A DNA stretch of 64,000 nt from Flavobacteriaceae bacterium (GTDB lineage: Bacteria; Bacteroidota; Bacteroidia; Flavobacteriales; Flavobacteriaceae). A program made the translations under genes and the position numbers. The stretch's first letter is position 1. Every line of letters begins with the position of its first letter. Location: contig CANGTQ010000007.1 in assembly GCA_947456955.1 (NCBI GenBank), forward strand, positions 60,487-124,486, read 5' to 3'. A model generated the notes under the pieces. That model ran no database searches. It was given only the letters and a program-made list of their open reading frames with translations, and was not told the origin of the DNA. Positions 13,777 to 54,618 of this stretch are shown in pieces.

Positions 13777-13862
13777 GGGTAATTAGTTTATTGGGTAAAT
13801 GTAATAAGATAAGGTTTGTATTCAAAATTATTTTCTAAAATAACTTAATGCATAATCAGAAA

Positions 13863-13949
13863 ATAGAAAATAGACGGATAGATGATAGACAAATAATTTG
13901 CGGTCCATAATAACGTATCTATTATCTCTTTGTCTTTTATCTATTATCT
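13863..13949. repeat. Inverted heptamer arrays (ATAGAxx arm / TATCTxx arm)
   Basis: ATAGAAA ATAGACG GATAGAT GATAGAC (13863-13890) versus GTATCTA TTATCTC TTTGTCT TTTATCT ATTATCT (13915-13949). Confidence 0.8.
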
Positions 13950-14045
13950 ATAAAAAAATGTTTACAACAATGTTTATAATAAATGAAGTTGTTTTTACGT
14001 TATAGGCTTTAGGATACTATTTTTGAATAAATTAAAATAAAAACC

Positions 14046-23561: not shown

Positions 23562-23639
23562 AGTTTATAGTTTGTGGTTTTTAGTTAACCACAAACTACA
23601 AACTACAAACTATAAACCATAAACAACAAATACAAATAT
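23562..23639. repeat. Inverted heptamer arrays (AGTTTxT arm / ACAAACT arm)
   Basis: AGTTTAT AGTTTGT GGTTTTT AGTTAAC (23562-23589) then ACAAACT ACAAACT ACAAACT ATAAACC ATAAACA ACAAATA CAAATAT (23591-23639) between gyrB and mdh. Confidence 0.9.
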
Positions 23640-31090: not shown

Positions 31091-31159
31091 TGTTTAGGGT
31101 TTATAGTTCATAGTTTATGGTTATAATAACTACAAACCATAAACTACAAACAATTAACT
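31091..31159. repeat. Inverted heptamer arrays (GGTTTAT arm / ATAAACT arm)
   Basis: TGTTTAG GGTTTAT AGTTCAT AGTTTAT GGTTATA (31091-31125) and ACAAACC ATAAACT ACAAACA ATTAACT (31132-31159) between porX and tsaE. Confidence 0.85.
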
Positions 31160-32748
31160 TACTTAGGATTAAAAACTAAAAAGGGAACAATCATTTCTTC
31201 CAGTGAAATTCCGCCGTGTTGGTAGGTATTTCGGTAATAACTAACATAATGATTGTAGTTATTTACGTATGCCAAAAACAAATCATTCTTCGCAAATATA
31301 TAAGAGCTGCTCATATTGATAGTTGGTAACCCTATTATCTTTGGGTCTTTCACTGCATAAACGTCTTTATCTTCATAGGTGAGACTTCTTCCTGTTTTGT
31401 ATCTTAAATTCAAACTAGTGTTTTTGTCACCTATAACTTTAGTTGGGTTTTTTACATTTATGGTTCCATGATCCGTGGTAATTATTAATTTAAAACCTAA
31501 TTTTTGAGCTTGCTGAATTATTTCTAATAAAGGTGAATTTTTAAACCAGCTCAGTGTTAAGGAACGATAGGCTTTATCATCCGAAGCCAATTCTTTTACA
31601 ACATCCATTTCGGTTTTGGCATGCGACAGCATATCCACAAAATTGTAAACTACAGTAACCAAATTGTTATCTTTTAATCCTTTGAAGTTTTCGGCTAATT
31701 TTTTTCCGCTTGCTAAATTGGTAATCTTAAAATAATCCTGTTTGATATTTAATCCCAATCGTTTCAAATGTGCTGTTAAAAACTCGGCTTCATAAAGGTT
31801 TTTACCTCCTTCTTCCACGTCATTTTTCCAATATTGTGGGAATTGTTTTTCCATTTCTAATGGAGTTAAGCCTGAAAAAATGGAGTTTCTGGCGTATTGT
31901 GTTGCGGTTGGTAAACTGGCGTAATACGGAACTTCTTTTTCCAGTTTATAATGATTTGCAACAACACTTTCCATTACTTTCCATTGATCATAACGAAGGT
32001 TGTCGATTACGACAAAAAGCACGGGTTTAGCTTTGCTAAGTTCGGCTCCGCTTTGTGTATCTTTTTTTACTAATTCAGGAACCACTAATTCTCTGAACAA
32101 AGTATGTGACTGAATCGGCTTATCCGCTTTTGGTTGAAACCAATCTTCATAGTTGCGCTCAATGAATTTTCCGAATTGCGCATTGGCTTCCACTTTTTGA
32201 CTTTCGAGAATTTCAAACATGCTTTGGTCATTAATGTTTTCTAATTCCAATTCCCAAAAAATAAGTTTTTTATAAAGCTCAACCCAATCTTCGTGGCTGT
32301 TTACCATTGCCATTTCCATTGCAATTTTTCGAAATTCTTTTTGATAATCTAAGGTCGTTTTTTCAGAAATCAATCGGGAATGATCGAGATTTTTCTTCAA
32401 GCTCAATAATATCTGATGGGGATTTACAGGTTTTATCAAATAGTCCGCAATTTTAGAACCAATGGCTTCTTCCATGATATATTCTTCCTCACTTTTGGTA
32501 ATCATTATCATTGGAGTAGACGATTTTTTTTCTTTCATTTCTGATAGCGTCTCCAAACCACTCATTCCTGGCATATTTTCATCAAGGAATACAATGTCGT
32601 AGTTACCCTCTTCAAATGCATCAACGGCATCCCGGCCATTATTGAAAGTTGTTACTTTATAGTTTTTCTTTTCTAGAAAAAGGATATGAGGTTTAAGTAA
32701 ATCAATTTCATCATCAACCCAAAGTATTTTGATAGGATCCATATTCAT
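31159..32748 (-). CDS. porX: T9SS response regulator / alkaline-phosphatase-fold protein PorX
   Basis: N-terminal receiver ILWVDDEIDLLKPHILFLEKKNYKV...VFLDENMPGMSGLETL plus C-terminal PglZ-like domain (VIDNLRYDQWKV...TTDHGTINVKNPTKVIGDKNTSLNLRYKTGRSL). Start possibly 32742. Confidence 0.94.
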   Translation of the reverse strand: MNMDPIKILWVDDEIDLLKPHILFLEKKNYKVTTFNNGRDAVDAFEEGNYDIVFLDENMPGMSGLETLSEMKEKKSSTPMIMITKSEEEYIMEEAIGSKIADYLIKPVNPHQILLSLKKNLDHSRLISEKTTLDYQKEFRKIAMEMAMVNSHEDWVELYKKLIFWELELENINDQSMFEILESQKVEANAQFGKFIERNYEDWFQPKADKPIQSHTLFRELVVPELVKKDTQSGAELSKAKPVLFVVIDNLRYDQWKVMESVVANHYKLEKEVPYYASLPTATQYARNSIFSGLTPLEMEKQFPQYWKNDVEEGGKNLYEAEFLTAHLKRLGLNIKQDYFKITNLASGKKLAENFKGLKDNNLVTVVYNFVDMLSHAKTEMDVVKELASDDKAYRSLTLSWFKNSPLLEIIQQAQKLGFKLIITTDHGTINVKNPTKVIGDKNTSLNLRYKTGRSLTYEDKDVYAVKDPKIIGLPTINMSSSYIFAKNDLFLAYVNNYNHYVSYYRNTYQHGGISLEEMIVPFLVFNPK

Positions 32749-41878: not shown

Positions 41879-41955
41879 TGTTTGTGGTTTGTAGTTTATT
41901 GTTATTATGTATCAGTAAAAACCTTAAACTTAAAACCATAAACCATAAACTAAAA
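41879..41955. repeat. Inverted heptamer arrays (GGTTTGT arm / ACCATAA arm)
   Basis: TGTTTGT GGTTTGT AGTTTAT TGTTATT (41879-41906) and ACCTTAA ACTTAAA ACCATAA ACCATAA ACTAAAA (41921-41955) between the amidinotransferase gene and ctlX. Confidence 0.85.
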
Positions 41956-41960
41956 AACAC

Positions 41961-42896
41961 ATGAAACAAACTACCAATTCCATATTGATGATTCGTCCTG
42001 TAGCTTTTCGCATGAACGAGCAAACGGCTGTGAATAATTATTATCAAAAAGTTCTTGACGGACTTTCTCCTGAAACAGTGAATGCCAAAGCCCAACAAGA
42101 GTTTGACACTTTTGTAAATAAGTTGCGAAAAGTAGGTGTAAATGTAATTGTGGTTGAAGATACTTTAGAACCAAATACACCCGATAGTATTTTTCCAAAT
42201 AACTGGATTTCGTTTCATGATAATGGAGATGTGGCCTTGTATCCAATGTTTGCCGAAAACCGTCGTGCCGAAAGAAGAGAAGACATACTTGACACTCTTG
42301 AAGATGAAGGTTTTAGAATTAACCAAATTGTAGATTATACTTCGGCAGAAGAAGACAATGTTTTTCTGGAAGGAACAGGAAGTTTACTATTAGACAGAGA
42401 AAACGGAAAAGCCTATTGTGCACTTTCGCCAAGAGCTGACGAAGAAGTTATGATTGAGTTTTGTGAAGATTTTGAATTAACTCCCGTTATCTTCGAAGCT
42501 TTCCAAACGGTTAACGGCGAGCGAAAACTGATTTATCATACCAATGTAATGATGTGTCTGGGTGATAGTTTTGCAGTGATTTGTGCCGATTGTATCGATG
42601 ATAAAAAAGAACGCAAAATGGTTCTCGATAGCCTGCGTGGTGATGACAAAGAAATCATCTTAATTACCGAAGAGCAAGTGAATAATTTTGCAGGCAACAT
42701 GCTCGAAGTAAAAGGCAAAAACGATAAAAGATTTTTAGTGATGAGCGAGTCGGCCTATAAAAGTTTAACCAAAAAACAAATTGTTCAACTCGAAGCACAT
42801 GTTGAAATTATTCATTCTAGTTTAGATACCATTGAAGCTTGCGGTGGCGGAAGTGCACGATGCATGATGGCAGAGATTTTTCTTCCGAAAAATTAA
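41961..42896 (+). CDS. ctlX: Citrulline utilisation hydrolase CtlX-like amidinotransferase
   Basis: MKQTTNSILMIRPVAFRMNEQTAVNNYYQ...DSIFPNNWISFHDNGDVALYPMFAENRRAERR...TIEACGGGSARCMMAEIFLP. Confidence 0.9.
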   Translation: MKQTTNSILMIRPVAFRMNEQTAVNNYYQKVLDGLSPETVNAKAQQEFDTFVNKLRKVGVNVIVVEDTLEPNTPDSIFPNNWISFHDNGDVALYPMFAENRRAERREDILDTLEDEGFRINQIVDYTSAEEDNVFLEGTGSLLLDRENGKAYCALSPRADEEVMIEFCEDFELTPVIFEAFQTVNGERKLIYHTNVMMCLGDSFAVICADCIDDKKERKMVLDSLRGDDKEIILITEEQVNNFAGNMLEVKGKNDKRFLVMSESAYKSLTKKQIVQLEAHVEIIHSSLDTIEACGGGSARCMMAEIFLPKN

Positions 42897-46319: not shown

Positions 46320-46359
46320 AGGTTTGGTTTTACAGTTAGCCAAAATACAAAAAAAGAAC

Positions 46360-46429
46360 ATAGAAAATAGAAAATAGAAAATAGAGAATAGACAAGTCTA
46401 TATTCTTTATTCTATTTTCTTTTCTCTTT
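46360..46429. repeat. Inverted heptamer arrays (ATAGAAA arm / ATTCTxT arm)
   Basis: ATAGAAA ATAGAAA ATAGAAA ATAGAGA ATAGACA (46360-46394) then AGTCTAT ATTCTTT ATTCTAT TTTCTTT TCTCTTT (46395-46429) between the symporter gene and recR. Confidence 0.9.
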
Positions 46430-46447
46430 TTACACTAAATTTGCCTC

Positions 46448-51385: not shown

Positions 51386-52783
51386 ATGAACATGAAAATT
51401 AAAAATATTTGTTGTATTGGTGCGGGATATGTTGGTGGACCAACAATGGCAGTTATTGCACAAAAATGTCCTGATATTAAAGTTACGGTAGTCGATTTAA
51501 ACGAAGCCCGAATAGCGGCTTGGAATGATAAAGATGTTAATAATATTCCAATATATGAACCGGGATTAAATGAAATGGTTGGCAATGTTCGCGGGAAGAA
51601 TTTGTTTTTTTCTACCGAAGTTGACAAAGCCATTGATGAAGCCGATTTGATTTTTATATCAGTAAATACGCCAACCAAAACTTACGGCACCGGAAAAGGA
51701 ATGGCAGCCGATTTAAAGCATATTGAACTTTGTGCTCGACAAATTGCCAAAGTAGCCAAAAACAATAAAATCATAGTTGAGAAATCGACCTTACCTGTTA
51801 GAACAGCCGAAGCTTTAAAGAGTATTTTAGACAATACCGGAAACGGAGTGCAATTTCAAATACTTTCGAATCCGGAGTTCCTAGCTGAAGGAACGGCTGT
51901 TGAGGATTTACTATCTCCAGATCGAGTTTTAATTGGAGGTGAAACAACACCTGAAGGTCAGGAAGCTATAAAATCTTTGGCTGATGTCTATGCCAATTGG
52001 GTTCCAAGAGAACGAATTTTAACTACTAATGTTTGGTCATCGGAATTGTCAAAGCTTGTTGCTAATGCCTTCTTAGCACAGCGCGTTTCTTCTATTAATG
52101 CTATTTCAGAATTATGCGAAAAAACAGAAGCCAATGTAAGTGAAGTGGCTAAAGCTATTGGAATGGACAGCAGAATCGGTCCTAAGTTTTTGAAAGCTTC
52201 CGTTGGATTTGGAGGTTCTTGTTTTCAAAAGGATATTTTGAATTTGGTTTATATTTCAAAAGCTTTCGGATTGCATGAAGTAGCCGATTATTGGGAACAG
52301 GTAATCATTATGAATGACCACCAGAAAAAACGTTTCTCCAAAAATATTGTACAGACACTATATAATACGGTTTCGGGTAAAAAGATAACTTTTTTGGGTT
52401 GGGCTTTTAAAAAAGACACTAACGACACCAGAGAATCAGCCGCCATTTATGTTGCCGATGATTTGATTAATGAACAAGCAAATATTGCTTTGTTTGACCC
52501 AAAAGTTTCCCAAAAACAAGTGCTTTCTGATTTGGATTATCTTGATACTAGAAAAGCTTCAGATAATGAAAAATATATCAAATCGTACGACAATCCCTAT
52601 GATGCTTGTAAAAATGCACATGCCATTGCCATACTAACCGAATGGGATGAGTTTAAAGAGTATGATTGGCAACGAATTTATGACAACATGCTAAAGCCGG
52701 CTTTTGTTTTTGATGGTAGAAACATTTTAGATGGTGAAAAATTGAAATCGATAGGGTTTAATTTTCAGTCGATTGGGAGTTAG
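51386..52783 (+). CDS. ugd: UDP-glucose 6-dehydrogenase
   Basis: [42 protein letters not shown]...[24 protein letters not shown]...[17 protein letters not shown]. Confidence 0.94.
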
Positions 52784-52788
52784 GTGGA

Positions 52789-52865
52789 GGTTATCGGTTG
52801 TCGGTTATCGGTTGTCAGTTATCAGTTATCGGTTTTGGGTTATCGGTTATTAGTTTAAGGTTAGA
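52789..52865 (+). repeat. Heptamer array, left arm (11 in-register units, consensus (G/A)GTTATC)
   Basis: GGTTATC GGTTGTC GGTTATC GGTTGTC AGTTATC AGTTATC GGTTTTG GGTTATC GGTTATT AGTTTAA GGTTAGA, immediately upstream of the four-helix-bundle gene. Confidence 0.92.
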
Positions 52866-52870
52866 AATTT

Positions 52871-53239
52871 ATGAATAGTTATAAAGATTTAGATATTTAT
52901 AAGATTTCTTTGAATTTGTTTTATGAAGTTCATCCAGCAACATTGTTATTGCCAAAGTATGAGCTCTATGAGCTTGGAAGTCAGTTAAGAAGATCATCTG
53001 ATTCTGTAGTTTCAAATATTGTGGAGGGTTATGGCAGAAAAAGATATAAAGCAGAATTTATTAGATTTTTAGTTTTCAGTCATTCTAGTTGCTTGGAAAC
53101 AAAAGCACATTTAGAAAAGATAAATCATTTGTATCAAGGACTAATTCCTGACAATTTAAAATATATTAATGAATACGATACTCTGGGAGCAAAAATTTTT
53201 ACTTTTATAAAATATGTCGAAGATAATTGGAAAACATAA
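52871..53239 (+). CDS. Four-helix-bundle protein (S23 / 23S rRNA intervening-sequence protein family)
   Basis: MNSYKDLDIYKISLNLFYEVHPATLLLPKYELYELGSQLRRSSDSVVSNIVEGYGRKRYKAEFIRFLVFSHSSCLETKAHL; SNIVEGYGR signature of the family. Confidence 0.93.
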   Translation: MNSYKDLDIYKISLNLFYEVHPATLLLPKYELYELGSQLRRSSDSVVSNIVEGYGRKRYKAEFIRFLVFSHSSCLETKAHLEKINHLYQGLIPDNLKYINEYDTLGAKIFTFIKYVEDNWKT

Positions 53240-53249
53240 TTTTCAACAT

Positions 53250-53340
53250 ACAACAGAGAACTGATAACAGAAAACGGAGAACAGAAAACTGAGAACCGAG
53301 AACAGAAAACGGAGAACCCAGAATTGAAAACAAAATAACA
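53250..53340 (-). repeat. Heptamer array, right arm (13 in-register units, inverted relative to left arm)
   Basis: ACAACAG AGAACTG ATAACAG AAAACGG AGAACAG AAAACTG AGAACCG AGAACAG AAAACGG AGAACCC AGAATTG AAAACAA AATAACA, ending exactly at the next gene's ATG. Confidence 0.92.
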
Positions 53341-54618
53341 ATGAGTACTAAAATTGCCGTTATAGGATTAGGATACGTTGGTTTACCACTGGCAAGACTA
53401 TTTGCTACCAAATATCCGGTTGTTGGATTTGACATTAATAACAATAGAATTGAGGAATTGAATTCAGGAGTCGATTCAACTTTAGAGATTGATGCAGATA
53501 CTTTGAACAAGGTGCTTGTTTCTTCATTAGCTGATTCGAATGGTTTACTTTGCAGTAGCACTTTGGATGATATAGCAAGTTGTAATTATTATATAGTTAC
53601 AGTTCCAACTCCAGTTGACAAAAATAACAGACCCGATTTGACTCCGTTATATAAATCGAGTGAAACGGTTGGGAAAGTTTTAAAAAAAGGAGATATCGTA
53701 ATTTATGAATCTACCGTTTATCCAGGAGTAACGGAAGAAGAATGTATTCCTGTTTTGGAAAGAGTAAGCGGCTTGAAATTTAATATTGATTTCTTTGCGG
53801 GTTATTCTCCCGAAAGAATCAATCCGGGAGATAAAGAGCATACGGTGGAGAAAATTTTGAAGGTTACTTCGGGTTCTACTCAGGAAATAGGACAAATAGT
53901 AAACAACCTATATAAATCGGTTATTACTGCCGGAACGCATTTGGCACCATCCATAAAAGTAGCTGAAGCCGCCAAAGTAATTGAGAACTCGCAACGCGAT
54001 ATCAATATTGCTTTTGTAAACGAATTGGCAAAGATTTTTAATTTGTTAGAAATCGATACGCATGCCGTTTTAGAAGCAGCTGGAACCAAGTGGAATTTTT
54101 TGCCTTTCAAACCAGGATTAGTTGGTGGGCACTGCATCGGAGTTGACCCTTATTATTTGGCTCAAAAAGCCCAGGAAAAAGGATACCATCCCGAAATTAT
54201 TTTGGCAGGAAGACGATTGAATGATAGTATGGGAGAATATGTAGCCTCACAAGTAGTGAAGCTGATGATTAAAAAAGGAGTTGCTATCAATGGAGCCAAA
54301 CTATTAATGCTGGGTATAACGTTTAAAGAAAACTGTCCCGATGTTAGAAACACCAAAATTGTAGATGTGGTTCATGCTTTGCAGGATTATGGAATAGAAG
54401 TTACCATTTTTGATCCTTGGGCAAAACCTTCAGAAGTAAAGCATGAATATAAATTAAACACTACCAACGAATTGCCATCAACTACTTTTGACGCTATCGT
54501 TTTAGGGGTTGCGCATAAAGAATTTACGACTATTGATTTGTCTAAATTAAAGAAGGCAAACGGAGTGCTGTTTGATGTTAAAGGTGTGTTGAATGAAAAA
54601 GCGGACGGAAGGTTGTAG
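53341..54618 (+). CDS. UDP-N-acetyl-D-hexosamine dehydrogenase (WbpA/TviB-like nucleotide sugar dehydrogenase)
   Basis: KIAVIGLGYVGLPLARLFATKYPVVGFDIN, TVPTPVDKNNRPDLTPL, GYSPERINPGDKEHTVEKI, KPGLVGGHCIGVDPYYLAQKA. Confidence 0.94.
   Translation: MSTKIAVIGLGYVGLPLARLFATKYPVVGFDINNNRIEELNSGVDSTLEIDADTLNKVLVSSLADSNGLLCSSTLDDIASCNYYIVTVPTPVDKNNRPDLTPLYKSSETVGKVLKKGDIVIYESTVYPGVTEEECIPVLERVSGLKFNIDFFAGYSPERINPGDKEHTVEKILKVTSGSTQEIGQIVNNLYKSVITAGTHLAPSIKVAEAAKVIENSQRDINIAFVNELAKIFNLLEIDTHAVLEAAGTKWNFLPFKPGLVGGHCIGVDPYYLAQKAQEKGYHPEIILAGRRLNDSMGEYVASQVVKLMIKKGVAINGAKLLMLGITFKENCPDVRNTKIVDVVHALQDYGIEVTIFDPWAKPSEVKHEYKLNTTNELPSTTFDAIVLGVAHKEFTTIDLSKLKKANGVLFDVKGVLNEKADGRL

Follow-up and report, generated by a model that had tools for sequence, protein, structure and literature searches.

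What is a small four-helix-bundle gene, enclosed by two heptamer arrays in inverted orientation, doing between the ugd- and wbpA-type genes of a polysaccharide operon in a Flavobacteriaceae bacterium? The unit lies in a 64,000-nucleotide stretch of contig CANGTQ010000007.1 (assembly GCA_947456955.1), hereafter referred to as the window. An initial annotation, made from the letters alone, read it as a possible intervening sequence (IVS) like those found in bacterial 23S rRNA, which may have moved into an mRNA and was perhaps excised or processed by RNase III.

The features of the locus are listed in Table 1. The inverted arrays of 11 and 13 in-register heptamers in the initial annotation proved exact in their coordinates and orientation, and both were scored by TRF. 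The upstream array adjoins the ugd stop codon as described, at a distance of 5 nt and not of the 6 nt claimed. The exact 10-bp complement between the arms is also present: GTTATCAGTT (52818) is the reverse complement of AACTGATAAC (53259), and each is single-copy in the window. The arms align with each other over ~79 nt (score 37), which gives the unit the terminal stem of a bacterial rRNA IVS, and it shares with the Coxiella IVS an S23p-type ORF preceded by heptamers; the rRNA-gene location of an IVS is not shared, as the unit lies between two protein-coding genes. In the fold check that had been suggested, the RNA of the unit folded better than shuffled sequences in the sense direction (z=-4.0) and in the antisense direction (z=-3.3). 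At this single locus, the arm duplex energy was -62 for the sense and -50 for the antisense RNA.

Table 1. Features of the window discussed in the text (position 1 is the first nucleotide of the window).
Feature	Position	Strand	Description
Whole unit	52784..53340	+	Entire ugd-to-wbpA-type spacer; 5-42 nt gap instead in five relatives
Upstream arm	52789..52865	+	11 heptamers in register, core (A/G)GTTNTC
Four-helix-bundle gene	52871..53239	+	122 aa; 23S rRNA intervening-sequence family PF05635/TIGR02436; closest PDB entry 2gsc, XCC0516
Downstream arm	53250..53340	+	13 heptamers in register, core AACNGAN, the reverse complement of the upstream unit; stops at the next ATG
ugd-like flanking gene	51386..52783	+	UDP-glucose/GDP-mannose dehydrogenase family
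wbpA-like flanking gene	53341..54618	+	UDP-glucose/GDP-mannose dehydrogenase family; ATG at 53341
Gene-less hairpins	13858-13951, 23563-23625, 31099-31160, 41880-41968, 46351-46430		AGTTTAT and AAAATAG types; gaps of varied orientation, some of them divergent

The assignment of the ORF to the 23S-IVS family was confirmed by matches to PF05635 (23S_rRNA_IVP; E=1e-21, 77.5 bits, curated cut-off 33.8) and to TIGR02436 (four helix bundle; E=4e-23, 81.7 bits, cut-off 24). We know of no established function for PF05635 proteins. At E-values up to 0.01, the sole PDB relative of the window protein is 2gsc (XCC0516), in our view the homopentameric S23p of Xanthomonas campestris to which a paper on the Coxiella IVS refers. 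That paper (PMC4990558) cites the Xanthomonas homologue as a homopentamer ring. PF05635 proteins were found in 89 of the 119 Bacteroidota genomes tested, with up to 16 copies per genome, and dN/dS values of 0.03-0.11 for 15 pairs of four-helix-bundle genes show strong purifying selection on their product. PF05635 was the only domain found within the unit, which contains no transposase, recombinase, reverse transcriptase or endonuclease. The window protein had no match to Avd (NF033474), the accessory protein of diversity-generating retroelements (DGRs), or to the anti-phage defence proteins of PADLOC-DB, and both neighbours of its gene encode dehydrogenases.

The combination of this gene with inverted arms recurs. 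PF05635 had 15 matches in the home genome, of which 13 passed the family cut-off, and most of the 15 copies are bracketed by inverted ~7-nt repeats whose unit differs from locus to locus, e.g., TAGTAAT at gmk|nadD, GACATTAA (period 8) at nuoF|nuoG, and AATAGAT between a thiolase and an acyl-CoA dehydrogenase gene (the flanking genes of these examples were named by eye from translations). We scored each upstream arm against the reverse complement of its own downstream arm, with arms paired across loci as the baseline. For 105 Bacteroidota loci, drawn from the home genome, its genus and its phylum, the mean own-pair score was 18.7 versus 9.7 across loci, and the best of 2000 permuted means was 10.6. 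Fifty-two of the 105 exceeded the 99th percentile of the cross-locus scores and 72 exceeded the 95th; at about one quarter to one third of loci, the second arm matches weakly or not at all. The flanks of these loci show autocorrelation peaks at 7, 14, 21 and 28 nt on both sides. Identical lag peaks and an own-pair score of 16.8 versus 9.1 across loci were obtained for 56 loci from other phyla (Chloroflexi, Acidobacteria, Proteobacteria, Omnitrophota, Patescibacteria, Fibrobacter, Clostridia, Verrucomicrobia, one archaeon and others). The inverted 7-nt flanks that the initial annotation had proposed to look for around other four-helix-bundle genes are present at most loci of both sets, and the gene family is packaged alike across ~20 phyla. 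The arm architecture is clear in four of six cyanobacterial plasmid copies. On plasmid pANA02 of Anabaena sp. 90 (L321), the cas6 and cas4 genes of a type I-D CRISPR operon are separated by a four-helix-bundle gene with heptamers, and at another locus (L254, 934-1550) a four-helix-bundle unit is located between two same-direction tRNA genes. None of 20 fetched loci examined was a 23S-located copy, and 50,697 phage records contained no match.

Control genes of the home genome exhibited periodicity on both flanks in 1 of 328 cases, and the inverted scores of the four-helix-bundle genes were higher than those of home-genome controls (p=1.4e-6). In a 464-kb sample of this genome, no other gene lies between inverted heptamer arrays; the only further gene to score highly has copies of another hairpin repeat on its flanks. 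At L226 (4953-6400), a dispersed hairpin of a different kind (AACCATTAAG...CTTAATGGTT) was observed on both sides of an aminotransferase gene, and hairpins similar to it are present in L229 and L232. Seven is the most enriched repeat period in the sample (39 arrays versus 2 after shuffling). The arms are also polar: at a lag of 7 nt, upstream arms contain 476 recurrences of AG and 46 of CT, and downstream arms contain 319 of CT and 67 of AG.

Comparison of related genomes yielded the empty sites that the initial annotation had called for. At the same ugd|wbpA junction, five relatives without the unit have gaps of 18, 27, 5, 25 and 42 nt. In genome G023, the junction is occupied by a different four-helix-bundle gene (L125, 29% identity) with different octamer arms; its downstream octamer arm has become part of the sequence that encodes the wbpA N-terminus (MSQKHPITPSPRLAII...). 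Genomes G006 and G061, which are near-identical at many loci, have five units in common and five and four private ones. At mraY|murD, G006 carries a unit, and in G061 and G057 the stop codon abuts the ATG; the insertion sits between stop and ATG, and substitutions at the junction blur any target-site duplication. G015 was ruled out as the donor of this unit, its junction flanks being mismatched. At groES|groEL, a unit is present in G061 (L141) and in none of three relatives. One site has been replaced: the flanking sequences match at 99-100% as far as the stop codon of the preceding gene and again from the ATG of the following one, and the two alternative units differ in their arms and share 62% protein identity. 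The gap of L074 holds in G061 (L198) another small ORF, apparently a coiled coil with a C-terminal membrane helix, and thus accepts different cargo. At mraY|murD and murD|ftsW, the outer flanks are nearly identical and substitutions crowd within 20-40 nt of the junction (8/40 versus 2/420 and 15/80 versus about 2/380; p=6e-8 and 7e-10), a pattern that resembles what very short exchange tracts would leave.

When units at different sites whose proteins are at least 70% identical were paired, arm similarity was 18.4 against a baseline of 8.8, and that of the outer flank was 8.5. Because relatives at unrelated sites have similar arms while their outer flanks remain at baseline, gene and arms move together. 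These similar arms and the differing occupancy of near-identical genomes agree with the earlier suggestion that the units spread. Clear jumps to new sites at >85% protein identity are few (L003/L033 and L262/L277), and close relatives differ in arm length by two heptamers. Insertion into a pre-existing heptamer array was rejected because both arms would then share the same orientation. At independent sites between co-directional genes, the units are sense-oriented in 61 cases and antisense in 1. The window unit contains no flavobacterial promoter consensus, so this bias may be no more than a consequence of dependence on read-through for expression.

Inverted heptamers also occur without the gene. 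About 16 clear gene-less heptamer hairpins were counted in the 464-kb home-genome sample, in gaps of every orientation, including divergent and convergent ones; the five of the window (Table 1) are among them. In G061, G015 and G057, a small hairpin of this type occupies sites that carry the gene-bearing unit in G006 (L197, L209 and L208); those of G061 and G015 are of the GTTTCAG type, and L199 is similar. Given that the hairpin can bear a different repeat unit than the gene-bearing copy at the same site, it is not a simple deletion product. The initial annotation had named arms without the gene at orthologous loci as evidence against its own proposal. Such arms exist (L197, L199, L208 and L209) and count against a strict gene-plus-arms IVS, although gene and arms still recur as a unit.

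The arms could be matched at the level of RNA or DNA. Selection for RNA pairing predicts that G.U mismatches between arms outnumber A.C mismatches. No such wobble excess was found in the Bacteroidota set (94 G.U-type versus 119 A.C-type) or in the named set (48 versus 60). Arm duplexes average -40 kcal/mol for own pairs and -27 kcal/mol across loci, and their sense and antisense energies are equal on average (-40.10 versus -40.07). In gene-less hairpins, a raw wobble excess of 36:14 dropped to 20:11 once limited to clear heptamer hairpins, and was rejected as an RNA signal. The idea that the 7-nt period provides a stop codon in every frame was also rejected, because several units (e.g., GTTATCG and AAGAAGC) contain no stop. 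The symmetric mismatch pattern is as DNA-level copying between the arms would give. Fast homogenisation of the arms could mask selection on RNA, and these results therefore weaken the RNA-level reading rather than dismiss it.

In that reading, the arms pair in the transcript and RNase III frees the gene-bearing loop, leaving the flanking frames intact. It is in keeping with the protein family and heptamer stem of the RNase III-processed Coxiella 23S IVS, the sense orientation of units in operons, the folding of the window RNA and the stability of the arm duplexes, but wobble mismatches are not enriched, sense and antisense energies are equal, and gene-less hairpins also lie outside operons, in divergent and convergent gaps. 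The mechanism proposed in the initial annotation was thus not borne out, and we regard it as unlikely, if still credible. The lack of any element-driven mobility is an explanation that we consider distinctly unlikely. Here, spacer alleles would be swapped by homologous recombination, and the four-helix-bundle gene would be an ordinary member of its operon that happens to have unstable repeats on its flanks. Same-site exchange does predominate, and synonymous substitutions lie near some junctions as in recombination tracts; however, the tracts exchanged span a mere 0-40 nt on either side, gene and matching arms recur at unrelated sites, and the architecture is tied to one family over about 20 phyla.

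Two further explanations concern the repeats themselves. By analogy with TRAP, which binds spaced NAG triplets, a toroidal four-helix oligomer might bind the AG-per-7-nt leader and control translation of its own gene, with the downstream arm acting as a competing anti-sequence. The universal AG polarity, reversed downstream, the position of the upstream arm immediately before the ATG of the gene and the pentameric ring of the Xanthomonas homologue would suit such self-regulation, which nevertheless leaves the inverted second arm, the gene-less hairpins and the mobility unexplained and seems improbable to us. The chance that ordinary microsatellites happen to adjoin an ordinary gene is negligible: heptamer repeats are common in the home genome and slippage is visible, but slippage cannot yield inverted, mutually matching arms around one family in many phyla, and this explanation is refuted at the family level.

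Given the architecture, the locus-specific matching arms, the joint travel of gene and arms, the empty and replaced sites, the purifying selection on the protein and the sense bias, we conclude, with a probability of roughly 0.6, that the locus holds a single copy of a compact, mobile, IVS-type element composed of an IVP/S23 four-helix-bundle gene and two inverted heptamer arms. Such an element would insert, in sense orientation, into the gaps that separate the genes of an operon, would be gained, lost and exchanged there among related genomes, and would sometimes reach new gaps; same-site turnover could largely be explained by ordinary homologous recombination between alleles. The arms would lengthen and shorten by slippage of whole units, and their complementarity would be maintained by DNA-level copying between them through template switching. 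This copying would account for a repeat unit that is specific to the locus and yet agrees in both arms. The polarity of the arms, with an AG step per 7 nt on the 5' arm and CT on the 3' arm, suggests that they may be bound by the four-helix protein, which might then serve mobility or maintenance, and the gene-less hairpins would be non-autonomous relatives. More tentatively, at somewhat less than even odds, the element may represent an undescribed bacteria-wide class of mobile units that lacks a known transposase and encodes a protein recognising its arms, with rRNA IVSs and gene-less hairpins as branches. The results point to a widespread mobile element that is absent from the open-access literature searched, in which no paper joining IVSs, S23 proteins and heptamer repeats was found. 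The model predicts binding of the arms by the protein, movement of the unit and co-evolution of the arms.

Several known systems share some of these traits. REPIN/RAYT systems and MITEs are, like the present units, hairpins dispersed in intergenic DNA, of which some include a gene and others lack one. The RAYT proteins belong to the tyrosine transposases, and a single conserved sequence is common to REPs; in contrast, the present units encode no transposase, and their arms vary in sequence from locus to locus. The Avd protein of DGRs also belongs to a four-helix-bundle family, and the relative at L112 matches the Avd model at 2.8e-8, below the cut-off, whereas a reverse transcriptase and a template/variable repeat were not seen at the window locus. 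The GGGAATC heptamers of Xanthomonas and GGGGA(C/T)T heptamers of Nostoc have been described as G-quadruplex-forming simple repeats (Rehm et al. 2015, PMC4692102), which in Xanthomonas form 70-75 convergent (inverted) intergenic pairs per genome. They resemble the present arms in being intergenic and in occupying conserved loci with variable length, but no link to four-helix-bundle genes was found in the text of that paper. TAACTGA repeats of Beggiatoaceae, Cyanobacteria and Bacteroidetes, possible sites of translational regulators (MacGregor 2015, PMC4679880), are also intergenic, mostly by start codons, and close in unit to the AACTGAN of the present arms; unlike these arms, they are direct repeats, and S23 or four-helix proteins are unmentioned in that paper.

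The 23S IVSs with an S23p ORF in Coxiella burnetii and Leptospira resemble the window unit in protein family, heptamers before the ORF and inverted stem. In Coxiella, two to three tandem copies of GACAGAT followed by GACAGAA lie just upstream of the S23p ATG, and the IVS has a 28-bp terminal stem, a strain-variable number of heptamers and RNase III cleavage (PMC4990558); by our own arithmetic, 28 bp is 4 x 7. Because the published Coxiella IVS has the same parts, with an S23p-type ORF and heptamers in its terminal stem, the link to IVSs drawn in the initial annotation was a good one. These IVSs lie inside the 23S rRNA gene and are excised by RNase III, whereas the present units lie between protein-coding genes, are numerous within a genome and have a repeat unit specific to each copy. 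The shared architecture ties PF05635 proteins to rRNA IVSs and to the heptamer repeats of Xanthomonas, Nostoc and Beggiatoa. If the mobile-element model holds, a 23S rRNA IVS with an S23p ORF would be an element of this kind resident in an rRNA gene, which would account for the existence of an ORF in the 23S IVS.
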